Below, piece after piece: positions 1,739-57,174 of a DNA stretch of 64,000 nucleotides. The first letter of the stretch is position 1. The number at the start of each line of letters is the position of its first letter. The DNA is from Thermococcus guaymasensis DSM 11113. GTDB lineage: Archaea; Methanobacteriota_B; Thermococci; Thermococcales; Thermococcaceae. The stretch covers positions 1,824,388-1,888,387 of the forward strand of contig NZ_CP007140.1 in the NCBI RefSeq assembly GCF_000816105.1. Reading direction: 5' to 3'. The notes beneath the pieces were generated by a model, which searched no databases, was not told where the DNA came from, and saw only the letters and a list, made by a program, of their open reading frames with translations. Both the position numbers and the translations under genes were made by a program.

Positions 1739-3643
1739 TTGAAGGGTGTCCATGTTATCGCAATAACGCTCATACTCCTGTTTTCGGGCCTGGTAAGTGC
1801 CTCTGAATACTGGGTGGGCTTCTACGGTACCCCCGGTCACGATGCACTTGAAAGCGTCTCCATAATGCCCAATGGAGACATCGTGGCAGTCGGAAAGGTG
1901 TCTTTTAACGGCACCACCGCTCCGTGGGCGATAAGGGTGGATCGTTACGGAGAAGTCCTATGGTCTAAGTACTACCCAATCCCCGGCGCGGAAGGGGAGT
2001 TCGAAGCACTCGCAGTTGATGAAGAAGGGAACATAATAGCCGTGGGCCTACTCAGGAAGGAAGCAGGATCGGCTCTAACTACAGACATCCTTGTGGTGAA
2101 GCTCGACGGGAACGGGGAAGTCCTGTGGGCGAGAGCCTATGATGGTGGGCCAAACGAAATCGGAAAGTCCATCAAGGTAGTGGGAAATGCGATCTTCGTC
2201 GGCGGCTGCACTTCCATTGGAGACGTTCCCACTGCCTGGATTCTCCGCTTAAACCCCTACGGGAGCGTTGTTTGGGCTAGGGCTTATTCTGGCCCGTACC
2301 CCACGTTCAAACCATTCCTAGCCCTAAACGGGAGTGAGATTCTGGCCCTCGGCGTGCTTGAGACCGGCCACCCTGCGGTGCTCCGGCTGAATCCCCTCAG
2401 CGGAGGGATCATTGATGCGACCGAGTACACAGGTCTGTCGACTTCGTCTCCAATAATAGCCGTTGGAGACGGCCAGTACTTCCTCCTCAATGGCAACGGA
2501 ACATGCCTGACAGTGCTCCAGCAAGGAGAAGAGTGGACGTGTTACAAACCGGGCTTTGAGGGGATCGACGTTTCGGCGGCAGAATACGGCGCAGGGGTAC
2601 TCTACGCCCTCAGCACCGCAAAGCCCTGGTCAGGGATTAATTTCTACGTCCTCGGCCTGGAAGGTGAGACGGTCAGGCTGAGCAGGGCGTACAGGCTCAG
2701 CGACCTTGACGTCCCCGGCTCCTTAGCCGTTTCCGGAGATTCTCTGGTCGTTGTTGGTTCGACCGAACGTTTTTCGTCGACTGTGAACACCGAAGGCTTT
2801 ATCATGAGGCTCCCGCTCAACGGCGCGATCAAGGGGTACGAGACAAAGGACGTTAACCCTTCAGTGTTTACGGGCAGTTCCAGTGCGCGTAAGGCTGAAG
2901 TCTCTTCTGAATCACTCCTTCCAAGGATCTATGAACTAGAGGTCGAAGAAAGGGACGCTCCACCGGTGGGCTTCCTGAGAATAACTACAGAGGGAACTGA
3001 AGAACCCACTATGCTGTACGTGGACGGCAAATTCTGGGCACTGTTTGGCGGCGAGGGTGTTTTTGCACTTGCCCCCGGAACCCACGAGGTCAAGCTGGCG
3101 GCGGAAGGTTATTACCCCTACGAAACGACCGTTTCGATAGAGGCAGGGAAAGAGACCGCCATAAGGGCGGAACTTGAGAGAAAGATCGAGTACGGGACGC
3201 TGGTCATAAGCTCTACCCCCTCCAGTGCGGCCGTTTACCTCAACGGCACTCTCGTTGGGTGGACGCCCCTCACCATGAACCTCACCCCGGGCAGATATAC
3301 TCTGGAGGTAGTGAAAGAGGGTTATGAGCCCTACAAGGGGACCATCGAAGTCTCCGCTAACAAAGAGACAACCATTGCGGTCGAGCTTGAGGAGGTTAAA
3401 ACCACAACGACCTCGACAGTCAGCACTACCACGACAACCTCCGCGGCCCCAACAACTTCTTCAACACAGCCGCTAACCACAACGAGCACGAGTCCTCAAA
3501 GTGAGAGCAAGACGAGTACATCAAAGGCAGGCGAGATCACATCAACCACCAAGAAAGGGGGCATCTGCGGGCCGGGAACGGTCCTACTCCTGCCGATCAT
3601 TTCACCCCTACTGGTGAGGAGGCTTCGGAGGGGTCGGAGGTAG
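1739..3643 (+). CDS. Secreted propeller-like protein with PEGA domains and CGP-CTERM tail
   Basis: A 634-residue surface protein. Order: signal peptide (about 1-20), a long region of repeated strand motifs of the type GDIVAVGK / GNGEVLWAR typical of beta-propellers (about 25-370), two PEGA domains (about 409-483 and 484-551), a Thr/Ser-rich linker, then GGICGPG followed by a hydrophobic segment and an Arg-rich end, which is the CGP-CTERM sorting signal. Start: the TTG at 1739 has GGTGGT at 1729-1734 at good spacing; GTG codons at 1730 and 1736 are alternatives. It is probably lipid- or surface-anchored after C-terminal processing. The ligand is unknown. A paralogue is encoded at 21410-22933. 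Confidence 0.72.
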   Translation: MKGVHVIAITLILLFSGLVSASEYWVGFYGTPGHDALESVSIMPNGDIVAVGKVSFNGTTAPWAIRVDRYGEVLWSKYYPIPGAEGEFEALAVDEEGNIIAVGLLRKEAGSALTTDILVVKLDGNGEVLWARAYDGGPNEIGKSIKVVGNAIFVGGCTSIGDVPTAWILRLNPYGSVVWARAYSGPYPTFKPFLALNGSEILALGVLETGHPAVLRLNPLSGGIIDATEYTGLSTSSPIIAVGDGQYFLLNGNGTCLTVLQQGEEWTCYKPGFEGIDVSAAEYGAGVLYALSTAKPWSGINFYVLGLEGETVRLSRAYRLSDLDVPGSLAVSGDSLVVVGSTERFSSTVNTEGFIMRLPLNGAIKGYETKDVNPSVFTGSSSARKAEVSSESLLPRIYELEVEERDAPPVGFLRITTEGTEEPTMLYVDGKFWALFGGEGVFALAPGTHEVKLAAEGYYPYETTVSIEAGKETAIRAELERKIEYGTLVISSTPSSAAVYLNGTLVGWTPLTMNLTPGRYTLEVVKEGYEPYKGTIEVSANKETTIAVELEEVKTTTTSTVSTTTTTSAAPTTSSTQPLTTTSTSPQSESKTSTSKAGEITSTTKKGGICGPGTVLLLPIISPLLVRRLRRGRR

Positions 3644-11194: not shown

Positions 11195-11267
11195 TGCCCG
11201 ACGAGTAGTGGGTTGCGATGACGTCGGGACCCCCAGGGGGGCGACATTCCAAATGCCCCCCTTCTGA
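11195..11267 (+). ncRNA. Candidate structured small RNA
   Basis: This GC-rich stretch holds two perfect 7-bp stems: CCCGACG (11197-11203) with CGTCGGG (11222-11228), and GGGGGGC (11236-11242) with GCCCCCC (11255-11261). A C-box-like GCGATGA (11215-11221) and a D-box-like CTGA (11264-11267), 53 bases end to end, suggest a C/D guide RNA, but no clear C' and D' pair is visible. The stems could instead mean another RNA class or a terminator. A TATA-like element 25-30 bases upstream fits. The opposite strand looks weakly coding (see findings), so the assignment is tentative. Confidence 0.3.
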
Positions 11268-11299: not shown

Positions 11300-11761
11300 A
11301 TGCAGGTACTGTGGGAACGTGAGATCCCAGTGGACACCATCAAAGTATCACCAAGGCCCGTGTGGAAGTGTCGGGCCTGTCCAATGTACGGCAAAAGGCC
11401 CAGCTGTCCTCCCCATGCCCCGGACTGGAAGGAAGCGCGGGAGTGGGTGGGGAGCTTCAAGCGCGCTATCTTAGTAAAGTTCGAGATAGACATGAATGAC
11501 TTTGAGAACGAAAAAAGAAAGGTACTCCTCTGGCTTTTGGACAAAGAGCGGGAGTTATTCAGGGAAGGGAACTTTTACGCAATGGCGCTCTTCCCCGGAA
11601 ACTGCAACCTCTGCCCAGACTGCCCCTTTGAGAGAGGCGAACCCTGCAGGATGCCTGAGAAGGTCAGACCCAGTGTTGACGCGGTAGGAATAGAGCTCAG
11701 CTCCCTCGTTGAGATAGACTTTTCGGAGAGTGTCCTATACGGCCTGATAATGGTTGAGTAG
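11300..11761 (+). CDS. DUF2284 family cysteine-rich metal-binding protein
   Basis: A 153-residue protein with two cysteine clusters: KCRACPMYGKRPSCPPHAP near 22-40, and CNLCPDCPF...C near 100-115. This is the DUF2284 pattern, thought to bind metal or an iron-sulfur centre. The substrate and partners are unknown. The start is set by the TATA element 24 bases upstream. The CARF gene begins 8 bases after its stop, so the DUF2284, CARF and PIN genes are probably one transcript, although a functional link is only inferred. Confidence 0.78.
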   Translation: MQVLWEREIPVDTIKVSPRPVWKCRACPMYGKRPSCPPHAPDWKEAREWVGSFKRAILVKFEIDMNDFENEKRKVLLWLLDKERELFREGNFYAMALFPGNCNLCPDCPFERGEPCRMPEKVRPSVDAVGIELSSLVEIDFSESVLYGLIMVE

Positions 11762-11769
11762 GTGGTACC

Positions 11770-12237
11770 ATGACCGTTCATGTTGCACTGCTCGGGAGGA
11801 CTCCATGGGCGCTGGTAAACACTTACTACGCTTCCGTTATGAGAGGTTCGCGACCGAGGGCCGTCTACGTCATAACAGAGAGGAGATATTCTCACTTCCT
11901 TCCCAAGATCATCAAAGCTATCAAGGAGATTTCCAGGGCATATGGCTTTGAACCGACCATCGAAACAAGGGTTATAGAGGATGACGACTTCCAGATGGCG
12001 GATAGAGTTTTCCGTGAGCTCTTCTCGAAGATAAACGGTGAAGAAGTTGTCCTAAACATGACTTCAGGCAGGAAAGCACTCGTGGCCGCAGCAATAGTCC
12101 AGAGCAGAAACTGCAACCTGAAGGAGATCCTCTACATGGCACTGCTCGACGTTGACTTCCCGGATAGGCCTTACATGATGCTCCCCCTGCACATGCAGAG
12201 GCTCAAGAACTTCCTCGGTGATGGCTATGAGCATTGA
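11770..12237 (+). CDS. Stand-alone CARF-domain protein
   Basis: A 155-residue Rossmann-like protein consisting of a CARF (CRISPR-associated Rossmann fold) domain. It shows the N-terminal strand-loop HVALLGRTPWALVNTYYA and the second signature VVLNMTSGRKALVAAA (NMTSGRK at 96-102), which matches the N-(L/M)-(T/S)-G-G-R-K ligand loop of Csa3-type CARF domains. CARF domains bind cyclic oligoadenylates made by type III CRISPR Cas10; some degrade them as ring nucleases. There is no fused HTH or nuclease; the next gene, overlapping by 11 bases, encodes a PIN nuclease. Inference: a sensor working with, or switching off, that nuclease. The ATG follows a GGTGG site. Confidence 0.72.
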   Translation: MTVHVALLGRTPWALVNTYYASVMRGSRPRAVYVITERRYSHFLPKIIKAIKEISRAYGFEPTIETRVIEDDDFQMADRVFRELFSKINGEEVVLNMTSGRKALVAAAIVQSRNCNLKEILYMALLDVDFPDRPYMMLPLHMQRLKNFLGDGYEH

Positions 12238-13204
12238 GGTTGTGATCGAGAAGCCGGAGCTTCAGATACTCATAAACCTCCTCCAGAAAGACGGAATTTT
12301 CGTCAGTTACCCTCTGTATGATATCCCCCTCTTCTTGGCTAGGGAAAGCGAGAAAGGCTACACTATTAACGTCCTCGCCAGGAGGCACGACTTCAGGGGC
12401 AGACACCCCGAGCTACCGTCGTATTCCGACTTCTACGAGACCTTTATCTCATCGGGCATAATAACCTACGACAACATAGACGAATTCGCCAACATGCTTG
12501 AGGTCTATCGCGTCCTCCGTAAGGGCGTCTCCTTTGCCCCGGATACCAACCTCTTCTACCATCGATTCATTTCCTCTTACCGGCCTTTAGACGGCTACCA
12601 GATAGTGGTCGCCGAGGACGTCAAAAACGAGATTGAAGCGGCGATGAACTACAAATACAGACACCAGCACCTGATCGAGATCTCGCGCGAAGTAAAGAAC
12701 GGCCACCTCCTGCGGGAGCTTTCAAACAGGAGAACCAAAAAGGCTAGAAAAGCTGCCTACATTGCCCTCAAGGAGTTCGAGGCCCTGAAGGACAGAATAA
12801 TAATCGCCGAAAGGTATGGCAGCGGGCACAACAACGACGAGATTATAGTGAAGACTCTCAAACACTTCGACGAGATGAGCCCCTCTCTGCTTGTCTTCCT
12901 GACGGCAGACCTCGCGATAACAGACGTGGCAAAGATGGAAGGCCTTGAGTACTTCCTTTTCGAGTACCCCACGAAAGAACTCGGAACACATGAGGTCTCG
13001 GCCTACCGGCTGAGGACCCTCATCTTTAACCTCGCGGCAGTTTTCGGTGTTATTGATGTCAATGGGACAGTAATTTACGGAGAGTTCGGTGGAAAAAGGA
13101 AGCTTAACGAGCTTAAACTGATCTTCAGAGACGAGGGACTCTTCAGGGAATTCATCTTCCACCTCAACCTCTGCAGACGGCTTGAGGCAATAATGAAAGA
13201 ATGA
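12227..13204 (+). CDS. PIN-domain nuclease partner of the CARF protein
   Basis: A 325-residue protein. The central PIN domain has candidate catalytic acids D106 (SFAPDTNLFYH), E135 (EDVKNEIEAA), D204 (HNNDEIIVKTL) and D228 (VFLTADLAITDV). About 100 residues precede it and about 75 follow it, much larger than a VapC toxin. RNA cleavage is the expected activity. The start at 12227 is chosen because GGTGAT at 12216-12221 is correctly spaced; it overlaps the CARF gene by 11 bases, so translation is coupled. No recognised effector of this architecture comes to mind. A hairpin terminator follows. Confidence 0.72.
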   Translation: MSIEVVIEKPELQILINLLQKDGIFVSYPLYDIPLFLARESEKGYTINVLARRHDFRGRHPELPSYSDFYETFISSGIITYDNIDEFANMLEVYRVLRKGVSFAPDTNLFYHRFISSYRPLDGYQIVVAEDVKNEIEAAMNYKYRHQHLIEISREVKNGHLLRELSNRRTKKARKAAYIALKEFEALKDRIIIAERYGSGHNNDEIIVKTLKHFDEMSPSLLVFLTADLAITDVAKMEGLEYFLFEYPTKELGTHEVSAYRLRTLIFNLAAVFGVIDVNGTVIYGEFGGKRKLNELKLIFRDEGLFREFIFHLNLCRRLEAIMKE

Positions 13205-13213
13205 ACAAGAGCT

Positions 13214-13249
13214 TCAAAGCACACAGAAATGCTTTGATGTCCATTTTTT
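13214..13249 (+). terminator. Hairpin plus T-run after the CARF-PIN operon
   Basis: TCAAAGCA (13214-13221) and TGCTTTGA (13230-13237) form a perfect 8-bp stem with an 8-base loop, followed by six T residues at 13244-13249. It lies 10 bases after the PIN stop and before the aminotransferase promoter. Archaeal termination mainly needs the T-run; the stem may add stability. Confidence 0.5.
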
Positions 13250-55215: not shown

Positions 55216-57174
55216 ATGAGAAAGGTAGCAACCATTATCGTGGCTTTTGTTTTGTTTAGCGTTTTTGGGTTTGCCTTGGCCAGCGCCACAACCGTTGCAG
55301 TGGACTTAACTCACGGTGAAAACACCAAGTATCTCGTTGACCCAGTTGTCGACCAGAGCAATCAGAGCCACATCCTTGCGCCCTCAATCGTCGAAGGCGT
55401 TGGAGACATGCAGTGGGCCTACTTCGGAAACCCAGACATGTTCCCCAACAACACCAAGATCAAGAACCTCGGGGACACGATAACTGCCGACGCCCTCAAA
55501 GACGTTGACATACTCATCCTTGGCCAGCCAACAAGCCCATTCACCCCCGAAGAAATCCAGGCAATCAAAGACTGGTTTGCCCAGGGCGGTAAGGTTCTCT
55601 GGATCGCCGCCGACAGCGACTACGGAAGCGGCGTCCAGACCCAGGACATAGCTGACAGCTTCCTCGAACAGCTTGGCTATGGCAACCTCAGAATCGACCT
55701 CTGCTCCGTGGATGATCATGCCAGCAACACTGGGTCTACCTTCCAAGTTATTGGACACGTTGACCCCGACGCGGACACGCCCTTCAAGGGAATGATCACT
55801 AAGGACTTCCTCCACGATGGCAAAGTGCTCTTCCACGGGCCGGGCGTGGTCGCCTGGGTTGACGAGAACGGAAACTGGCACCCACTCACCGAGGACTCCA
55901 AGCCGCCCCTCACGTACAGGATTGTGGTAACCAGTGAGGATGGCATAATCGTTGAGAACAGCGCTCCATCGGCAAACGCTTACATAGCCAATGACACGGG
56001 GGTCTTCACTCTCCTCGCGGCTCAGGTCGTCCCGCTTGGAGGCACTCAGAGTATCCTCATAGTCAGCGGTGAGAGCCCGTACGGTGCCTACAAGCCGATC
56101 TGGAGCCCTCTCTTCCGGGGTGTAAACCTTGATGGCCCGCAGTTCGTCAGCAACATACTCCACTGGGCCGCCTTGGTTGCCAAGTCCGGTGTTCCGGAGA
56201 ATCTCTTCTCAGTCCCAGACCCGGAGGGTGACGATCACGGGCCGGGAACCTACACCTACCCGACTGACGCAGTTTTCAACAAGACCGGACTCTTTGACCT
56301 TACTGGCCTCGATGTCCTCAAGGCCGGCGACAAGTACGTCTTCAGCTTCCACTTCAAGAACCTCGGTGGCAACCCGTGGAACGGGCCGAACGGCTTCAGC
56401 CTGCAGGTTATTGAAGCCTACTTCGACTTCAAGGAGGGTGGAAACACTTCAGCCATTAAACTCGATGAGAAAGGCCCAGGAAGCAACGTTGACCTTGACC
56501 CAGACCACCCATGGGATCTCGCCTTCAGGGTAACCGGCTGGAGCAAGAAGCTCGTCCTTCCAAACGGAACCGTTCTTGAGGACATTGACGTGTTCACGGA
56601 TCTGGACGAGAACACGATTAACGTCCTCGTTCCGGCCAAGTACTTCGGCGAGGATCTCAACGCAGAAAACATCAGGATGGCGGTTCTCGTTGGCAGTCAG
56701 GATGGGTTTGGTGTTGATGAGTGGCGTGATGTTCAGGTTGAGGCTGAGGAGTGGAGGATTGGTGGTGGTGACTCTGATGCCATCATAGCTGGCGTCGCCC
56801 CACGCGTCATGGACCTCCTCGTCCCAGAATGGTTCCACCCAACCCAAGAAGAGCAGCTGAGCAGCTACGACTCTGAAAACGGAAAGAGGGCAACAGTCTT
56901 GATGATAACCCCCATTGAAAGCGCCCCCACCACTACAACTACAACCACGACGACTACTACGACCTCCTCGACGACAACCACGACCACTACAACCACCACA
57001 ACGACGACCACTACCACAACTACTACCTCCACCACAACGACTACAACTACCACTACAACCACAACATCCTCAGCAACAACTACGACTACTTCAGAGGGTG
57101 GCGGTGGAATCTGCGGTCCAGCGGCCCTGATAGGCCTCGCAATAATCCCACTCCTCCTCAGGAGAAGGCGCTGA
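55216..57174 (+). CDS. Secreted protein with glucodextranase-like module and CGP-CTERM tail
   Basis: A 652-residue surface protein. A signal peptide (1-24) precedes a Rossmann-like domain resembling GATase1/DUF4350 (ADALKDVDILILGQPT and WFAQGGKVLWIAADSD). A C-terminal module has DPEGDDHGPGTYTYPTDAVF, as in the glucodextranase C-terminal binding domain. Then a long Thr linker and GGGGICGPAALIGLA plus RRRR end. It may bind a sugar polymer on the cell surface (inference). The ATG at 55216 follows GGTGAATATC. Confidence 0.76.
   Translation: MRKVATIIVAFVLFSVFGFALASATTVAVDLTHGENTKYLVDPVVDQSNQSHILAPSIVEGVGDMQWAYFGNPDMFPNNTKIKNLGDTITADALKDVDILILGQPTSPFTPEEIQAIKDWFAQGGKVLWIAADSDYGSGVQTQDIADSFLEQLGYGNLRIDLCSVDDHASNTGSTFQVIGHVDPDADTPFKGMITKDFLHDGKVLFHGPGVVAWVDENGNWHPLTEDSKPPLTYRIVVTSEDGIIVENSAPSANAYIANDTGVFTLLAAQVVPLGGTQSILIVSGESPYGAYKPIWSPLFRGVNLDGPQFVSNILHWAALVAKSGVPENLFSVPDPEGDDHGPGTYTYPTDAVFNKTGLFDLTGLDVLKAGDKYVFSFHFKNLGGNPWNGPNGFSLQVIEAYFDFKEGGNTSAIKLDEKGPGSNVDLDPDHPWDLAFRVTGWSKKLVLPNGTVLEDIDVFTDLDENTINVLVPAKYFGEDLNAENIRMAVLVGSQDGFGVDEWRDVQVEAEEWRIGGGDSDAIIAGVAPRVMDLLVPEWFHPTQEEQLSSYDSENGKRATVLMITPIESAPTTTTTTTTTTTTSSTTTTTTTTTTTTTTTTTTTSTTTTTTTTTTTTSSATTTTTSEGGGGICGPAALIGLAIIPLLLRRRR
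56926..57096 (+). repeat. Threonine-codon repeat tract
   Basis: A run of ACN codons (about 55 Thr, with a few Ser and Ala) forms the linker before the CGP-CTERM tail. All four Thr codons are used in irregular order, so this is not a simple microsatellite; it is likely an O-glycosylated spacer. Confidence 0.7.

Follow-up and report, generated by a model that had tools for sequence, protein, structure and literature searches.

A conserved two-gene CARF–PIN pair in Thermococcus guaymasensis and other archaea: a putative two-chain ribonuclease switch operating apart from Cas10

The window analysed here, a stretch of 64,000 nt from the genome of Thermococcus guaymasensis DSM 11113, carries overlapping genes for a single-domain CARF protein and a PIN-domain protein, which rather probably make up a two-chain, CARF-gated PIN ribonuclease working without Cas10. 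CARF domains have been treated almost wholly as readers of cyclic oligoadenylates made by Cas10, with RtcR as a rare exception. Orthologous pairs occur in Thermococcus, Archaeoglobus, Methanomicrobiales and Helarchaeota, a conservation far beyond what chance would produce, and both genes of the pair are under strong purifying selection. The finding of such selection in genomes without detectable Cas10, along with a ligand loop that is rebuilt and invariant, suggests that CARF proteins act as sensors outside CRISPR in archaea. With less assurance, we extend this to an archaeal RNase switch that would be a core trait of most Thermococcaceae, where a CARF protein no longer tied to CRISPR controls a PIN protein in a second chain upon a signal not made by Cas10, either a new cyclic oligonucleotide or the ends of damaged RNA.

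The CARF gene (11770..12237, + strand) encodes a protein of 155 aa, predicted to be a ligand sensor, with the sequence NMTSGRK at residues 96–102. It overlaps by 11 bp the gene of the 325-aa PIN-domain protein, the predicted ribonuclease effector (12227..13204, + strand), whose reading frame runs from an ATG at 12227 to a stop at 13204, with GTG 12218 and ATG 12221 as alternative starts. Four predicted catalytic acids of the PIN protein, D106 (12542..12544), E135 (12629..12631), D204 (12836..12838) and D228 (12908..12910; all + strand), are essentially invariant: E135 and D204 in both alignments inspected, D106 in one and in 30/30 rows of another, and D228 in one and in 29/30 rows of another. 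The two proteins, NMTSGRK, the 11-bp overlap and the four acids had been listed in a preliminary description of this DNA and were confirmed, the acids at the same residues, as was a cysteine-rich gene ending at 11761, 8 bases upstream of the CARF gene. This first gene of the operon (11300..11761, + strand) encodes a putative metal-binding DUF2284 protein of 153 aa from ATG 11300 (Pfam PF10050, E = 3e-33). A hairpin followed by a T-rich stretch 3' of the PIN stop codon (13214..13237, + strand) is a possible operon end, the count of such sites not being above chance, and no Rfam family was found in the operon region.

Profile searches revealed the CARF protein to match PADLOC PDLC01971 (CARF_m1--CARF) with E = 1.2e-73 and 244 bits. 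Since Pfam and NCBIfam gave sub-threshold CARF matches only, its identity was settled via PADLOC and predicted structure; a PF09651 profile search of the genome was without match, as were its controls. The PIN protein matched Pfam PIN_4 slightly short of the cut-off (E = 6e-4), and the CARF and PIN proteins each matched the corresponding portion of the fused PADLOC profile CARF_m1--CARF_PIN (PDLC01973). AlphaFold2 models, computed from alignments of 29 and 28 sequences, reached a pLDDT of 87.6 and a pTM of 0.84 for the CARF protein and a pLDDT of 89.7 and a pTM of 0.88 for the PIN protein. A Foldseek search of the PDB with the CARF model gave 9JXW (SiRe_0806) as the top match, with many other CARF structures matching as well, and the PIN model gave 9JXX, also SiRe_0806, with E = 6e-8. 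The features of the CARF superfamily are thus present, comprising the Rossmann-like fold (AlphaFold2 with Foldseek, PADLOC) and a motif II of the TxGRK type. By sequence, Sso2081 was the best PDB match of the CARF protein; direct sequence searches of the PDB with the PIN protein produced no useful match. A CARF profile match and a modelled PIN fold bearing the acidic site, both named in the preliminary description as checks on its reading, were hence obtained.

SiRe_0806 of Sulfolobus islandicus (PDB 9JXW and 9JXX, the latter with cA4) likewise consists of CARF and PIN parts, but it is one polypeptide, whereas the system in the window is encoded by two genes, has a changed motif I and belongs to a genome in which Cas10 was not detected. 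Because this single-chain protein, whose structure was determined with cA4, is the top structural match of both chains, the pair is read as a two-chain CARF–PIN effector. The earlier proposal that sensor and effector are split into two coupled genes is borne out by the match of both models to one fused structure and by the adjoining position of the genes in nearly all intact loci inspected. The PIN protein comprises an N-terminal domain (residues 1–95; 12227..12511, + strand), a PIN core and a C-terminal part. By position, its N-terminal part matches the linker and its C-terminal part the tail in fused CARF–PIN proteins, and the N-terminal domain is proposed as the docking part from its position relative to the fused proteins and its secondary structure. 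The equivalence with the linker leans on position and on the reading of alignments, since profile alignments to fused proteins begin at a residue number of at least 56. Contact between the CARF and PIN proteins would be expected from the fusion in relatives and from the gene overlap.

In the putative ligand pocket, motif I (residues 9–13, GRTPW; 11794..11808, + strand) has the family form GR[S/T]xW, and motif II (residues 98–102, TSGRK; 12061..12075, + strand) is the counterpart of Gly104-Arg105-Lys106 of Sso2081. Residues G9, R10 and W13 as well as T98, G100, R101 and K102 were invariant in 58 Thermococcaceae and in a wider set of 29 sequences. Motif I reads GR[S/T]xW throughout the split CARF proteins, in place of the GTS-type loop of Cas10-linked CARF proteins, and further CARF proteins from Halobacteriota have nearly all GRSxWA. 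In Sso2081, with motif I G9-T10-S11 and motif II G104-R105-K106, Arg105 is essential for cA4 binding, and cleavage is little affected by the Thr10Ala exchange (PMC10018336). Given a motif II identical to that of cA4 binders and the mild effect of Thr10Ala, the split CARF protein may still bind cA4.

The altered motif I bears on the suggestion, made in the preliminary description, that the CARF protein acts as a ring nuclease to switch off the PIN RNase. This was rejected on motif I and on the lack of a detectable Cas10 as a source of cyclic oligoadenylate. Crn1 ring nucleases (Sso2081, Sis0455) resemble the window protein as single CARF domains with a GRK motif II, but they have a GTS motif I with Ser11, cleave cA4 and occur in a type III context, whereas the window protein has R10 followed by S/T11 and no type III CRISPR context was seen in its host. 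It is very improbable that the CARF protein limits a signal as a ring nuclease beside an independent PIN RNase. Its Crn1-like size and fold, with Sso2081 as the best sequence match, and the presence of motif II would fit such a role; GR[S/T] instead of GTS in all orthologues, the missing Cas10 source, the overlapping or abutting genes and the fused homologues that join both parts speak against it.

Fused CARF–PIN proteins of Thermococcaceae (PADLOC PDLC01973 type; mostly 480–530 aa) share domain order and PIN motif with the pair, but their motif I is GTS, with one GTT, instead of GR[S/T]xW. Split and fused forms fell into separate clades with 100/100 support in the CARF tree and the PIN tree alike. 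All 18 fused paralogues were found in genomes with Cas10 (18/18; Fisher 5e-10, ignoring phylogeny), at a distance to Cas10 of 3.1–15.4 kb in the 17 measurable cases. Since this Cas10-linked fused paralogue exists separately, the split version probably came to serve a different signal.

Among 94 Thermococcaceae genomes, 74 of which were of good quality, the intact pair was present in 65 of the 74 and both genes were jointly missing in the rest. Conservation of the pair in other genomes, another check raised at the outset, was thereby found. Using two Cas10 profiles, which could miss divergent Cas10, Cas10 was detected over the cut-off in 35 of the 94 genomes. The pair occurred in 42/45 good genomes without and in 23/29 with Cas10, so that no Cas10 was detected in 42 of the 65 good genomes bearing the pair, and the association had an odds ratio of 0.27–0.33 (not significant); Thermococcaceae having inherited the pair vertically, these genomes do not count as independent tests. 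Where pair and Cas10 lay on a single contig (13 genomes), they were 15–1669 kb apart, with more than 150 kb between them in 12. The host genome itself gave no Cas10 over the cut-off with the two profiles; a weak match (E 1.5e-5), to a frame of 219 aa, covers no more than model positions 3–77. The Csm1 profile, the only one applied to nine host records from outside Thermococcales, some of them incomplete, was matched over the cut-off in one. As the pair is conserved mostly in genomes lacking Cas10, its signal is probably other than that of Cas10.

The preliminary description had the pair acting in trans on cyclic oligoadenylate made by Cas10. That dependence found no support, with no Cas10 detected in the host or in most pair-bearing genomes and a fused paralogue that tracks Cas10 perfectly; the expected co-occurrence of the pair with Cas10 genomes was not seen as any enrichment. 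We consider it improbable, though less so than the ring-nuclease role, that the CARF protein binds cA4 or cA6 from a type III CRISPR system and thereby activates the PIN protein. The intact GRK motif, the solution of the closest fold, SiRe_0806, with cA4 and the 23 good genomes with both components are consistent with it. The weak and non-significant association, the large distances and the tight linkage of the fused paralogue argue against it, and a search for mCpol was also without match.

No alternative ligand synthase was identified; a DAC-domain protein in the host is the sole pointer to c-di-AMP as ligand and is regarded as a lead. No CRISPR array was found within the window and the only Cas1 of the genome lies outside, which for arrays and Cas1 agrees with the original statement that the window is devoid of CRISPR and Cas genes. 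The cas/CRISPR locus of the host (1780571–1799955) is 36–56 kb upstream of the pair and was judged visually to be type I-B-like together with I-A, Cas1 alone being checked by profile. At 1795834–1796529, this locus, which is without Cas10, encodes a CARF-HTH protein that by eye is Csa3-like, a further case of CARF without Cas10.

The order DUF2284–CARF–PIN is constant over five genera and farther neighbours vary; CARF and PIN were two ORFs in the Thermococcaceae loci inspected. The gap between the DUF2284 and CARF genes ranges from -4 to +35 bp, or is about 460 bp where an extra membrane-protein gene is present. In some Thermococcus, a membrane-like protein of about 150 aa without a Pfam family is encoded between them (L069:6744-7196, L070:5137-5592). 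DUF2284 was found in all good Thermococcaceae genomes. Because these include genomes devoid of the pair, it is not an obligate member; of the earlier idea of DUF2284 as a third member, its place as an operon neighbour in Thermococcales held. As an obligate partner it was rejected, since DUF2284 and the pair are each found where the other is absent. In the genus g3, Pyrococcus-like by inference, the pair was absent from 9/9 genomes (fused relatives occur in some of them), and in genome G034 it is cleanly gone with the customary flanking genes retained. In genome G076 (L081:5974-7913), the PIN gene is split between residues 200 and 201 by an insert of about 950 bp that bears two transposase-like ORFs, and no intact PIN gene is present.

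Beyond Thermococcales, orthologues were found in Methanoculleus, Methanofollis, other Methanomicrobiales, Archaeoglobus and a MAG of Helarchaeota (Asgard). The CARF and PIN genes overlap or adjoin in all seven intact non-Thermococcales loci, which are without DUF2284. A draw of 394 genomes from Halobacteriota, the phylum of the Methanoculleus record, yielded 64 with matches, more than 40 of them strong. Of 32 Halobacteriota loci fetched (L184-L215), 30 have a separate CARF gene directly upstream and none has a single ORF. A HAD hydrolase gene, rather than DUF2284, is the usual companion there and follows directly downstream in 24 of the 32, so that CARF–PIN–HAD looks like a three-gene unit in this phylum. 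At Archaeoglobus-type loci, McrC and mostly also McrB are encoded just upstream of the pair (L145:19-3996, L144:155-3999, L184, L204; L144 and L204 are from one genome), which suggests a defence setting. Comparing the window with two relatives without detectable Cas10, dN/dS was 0.05–0.07 for the CARF gene and 0.05 for the PIN gene.

These data also bear on the main alternative, a constitutive RNA-processing or decay enzyme in which the CARF protein serves the PIN RNase as a subunit, either structural or RNA-binding, and no second messenger takes part. Near-universal occurrence in single copy under strong purifying selection in Thermococcus, the housekeeping-like neighbours (DUF2284 and the downstream HAD hydrolase) and an RNase J-like gene, recognised by eye, near the pair in some loci would fit such an enzyme. 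The absence from g3 and G034, the apparent transposon within PIN in G076, strong matches in only about 12% of the sampled Halobacteriota, the adjoining McrBC genes in Archaeoglobus and the strictly conserved pocket motifs are harder to reconcile with it, and we regard this alternative as unlikely, albeit the least so of those considered.

A toxin–antitoxin-like module, in which the CARF protein would keep a PIN toxin inactive until it is released or unlocked on infection, seems hardly probable. The small upstream partner, the overlapping stop and start, a PIN effector, loss as a unit and McrBC nearby in Archaeoglobus are reminiscent of such modules; the stable core inheritance differs from their usual scattered, mobile pattern, and there is no known VapB-type partner. 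VapBC consists of a short PIN toxin and a DNA-binding antitoxin, whereas the pair combines a CARF protein with a 325-aa PIN protein that has extra N- and C-terminal parts.

For the favoured CARF-gated ribonuclease, we propose that the CARF protein dimerises and binds a nucleotide or RNA-derived ligand in a pocket formed by GR[S/T]xWA and TSGRK. The PIN protein would dock on this dimer, its N-terminal domain sitting where the CARF–PIN linker lies in one-chain relatives, and RNA would be cut once the ligand is bound. Sequence and models establish the domains, the active-site acids, the pairing, the selection and the missing link to Cas10, and on these the complex, its ligand, the gating, the RNase activity and the role are predicted. 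Candidate signals are a cyclic or linear oligonucleotide, for instance RNA ends with a 2',3'-cyclic phosphate as in RtcR, and the role may lie in defence or in an RNA-stress response. The CARF domain of RtcR, which works without Cas10 as is proposed here but is fused to AAA+ and HTH domains, binds tRNA fragments with 2',3'-cyclic phosphate ends (PMC7790460), which demonstrates that a CARF domain can undergo such a shift of ligand. A study of CoCoNuT systems proposes like sensing for McrBC-related systems with CARF domains (PMC11090510).

Effectors of the CARF–PIN kind are already known in outline: two CARF families are associated with PIN (PMC4012209), PIN effectors have been listed (PMC12669027) and the SiRe_0806 structures are available. 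The CARF family itself is already catalogued in PADLOC, the PDLC01971 profile being essentially the window protein, as an entry for CARF alone with neither partner nor function. Little was found in the literature on CARF–PIN proteins and on DUF2284 in archaea. The novelty seems to lie in a fixed two-gene form that does not depend on Cas10, in its altered motif I and in its association with HAD and McrBC genes; part of this may stand in the 2020 CARF classification. The pair presents a testable case for a new nucleotide or RNA-damage signal, with the fused, Cas10-linked paralogue of the same family as a natural control.

Two further observations were made in the window. A GC-rich noncoding element of about 70 nt with two hairpins lies at 11195-11266 (+ strand), without an Rfam match at E ≤ 1; copies with 87–93% identity, several of them ending in ACA, recur in several Thermococcus genomes, where the distance to the pair varies, and the element is probably an unannotated structured RNA. 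Threonine-coding repeats are present at 3402-3485 and 56909-57094 within two large ORFs with signal-peptide-like starts.
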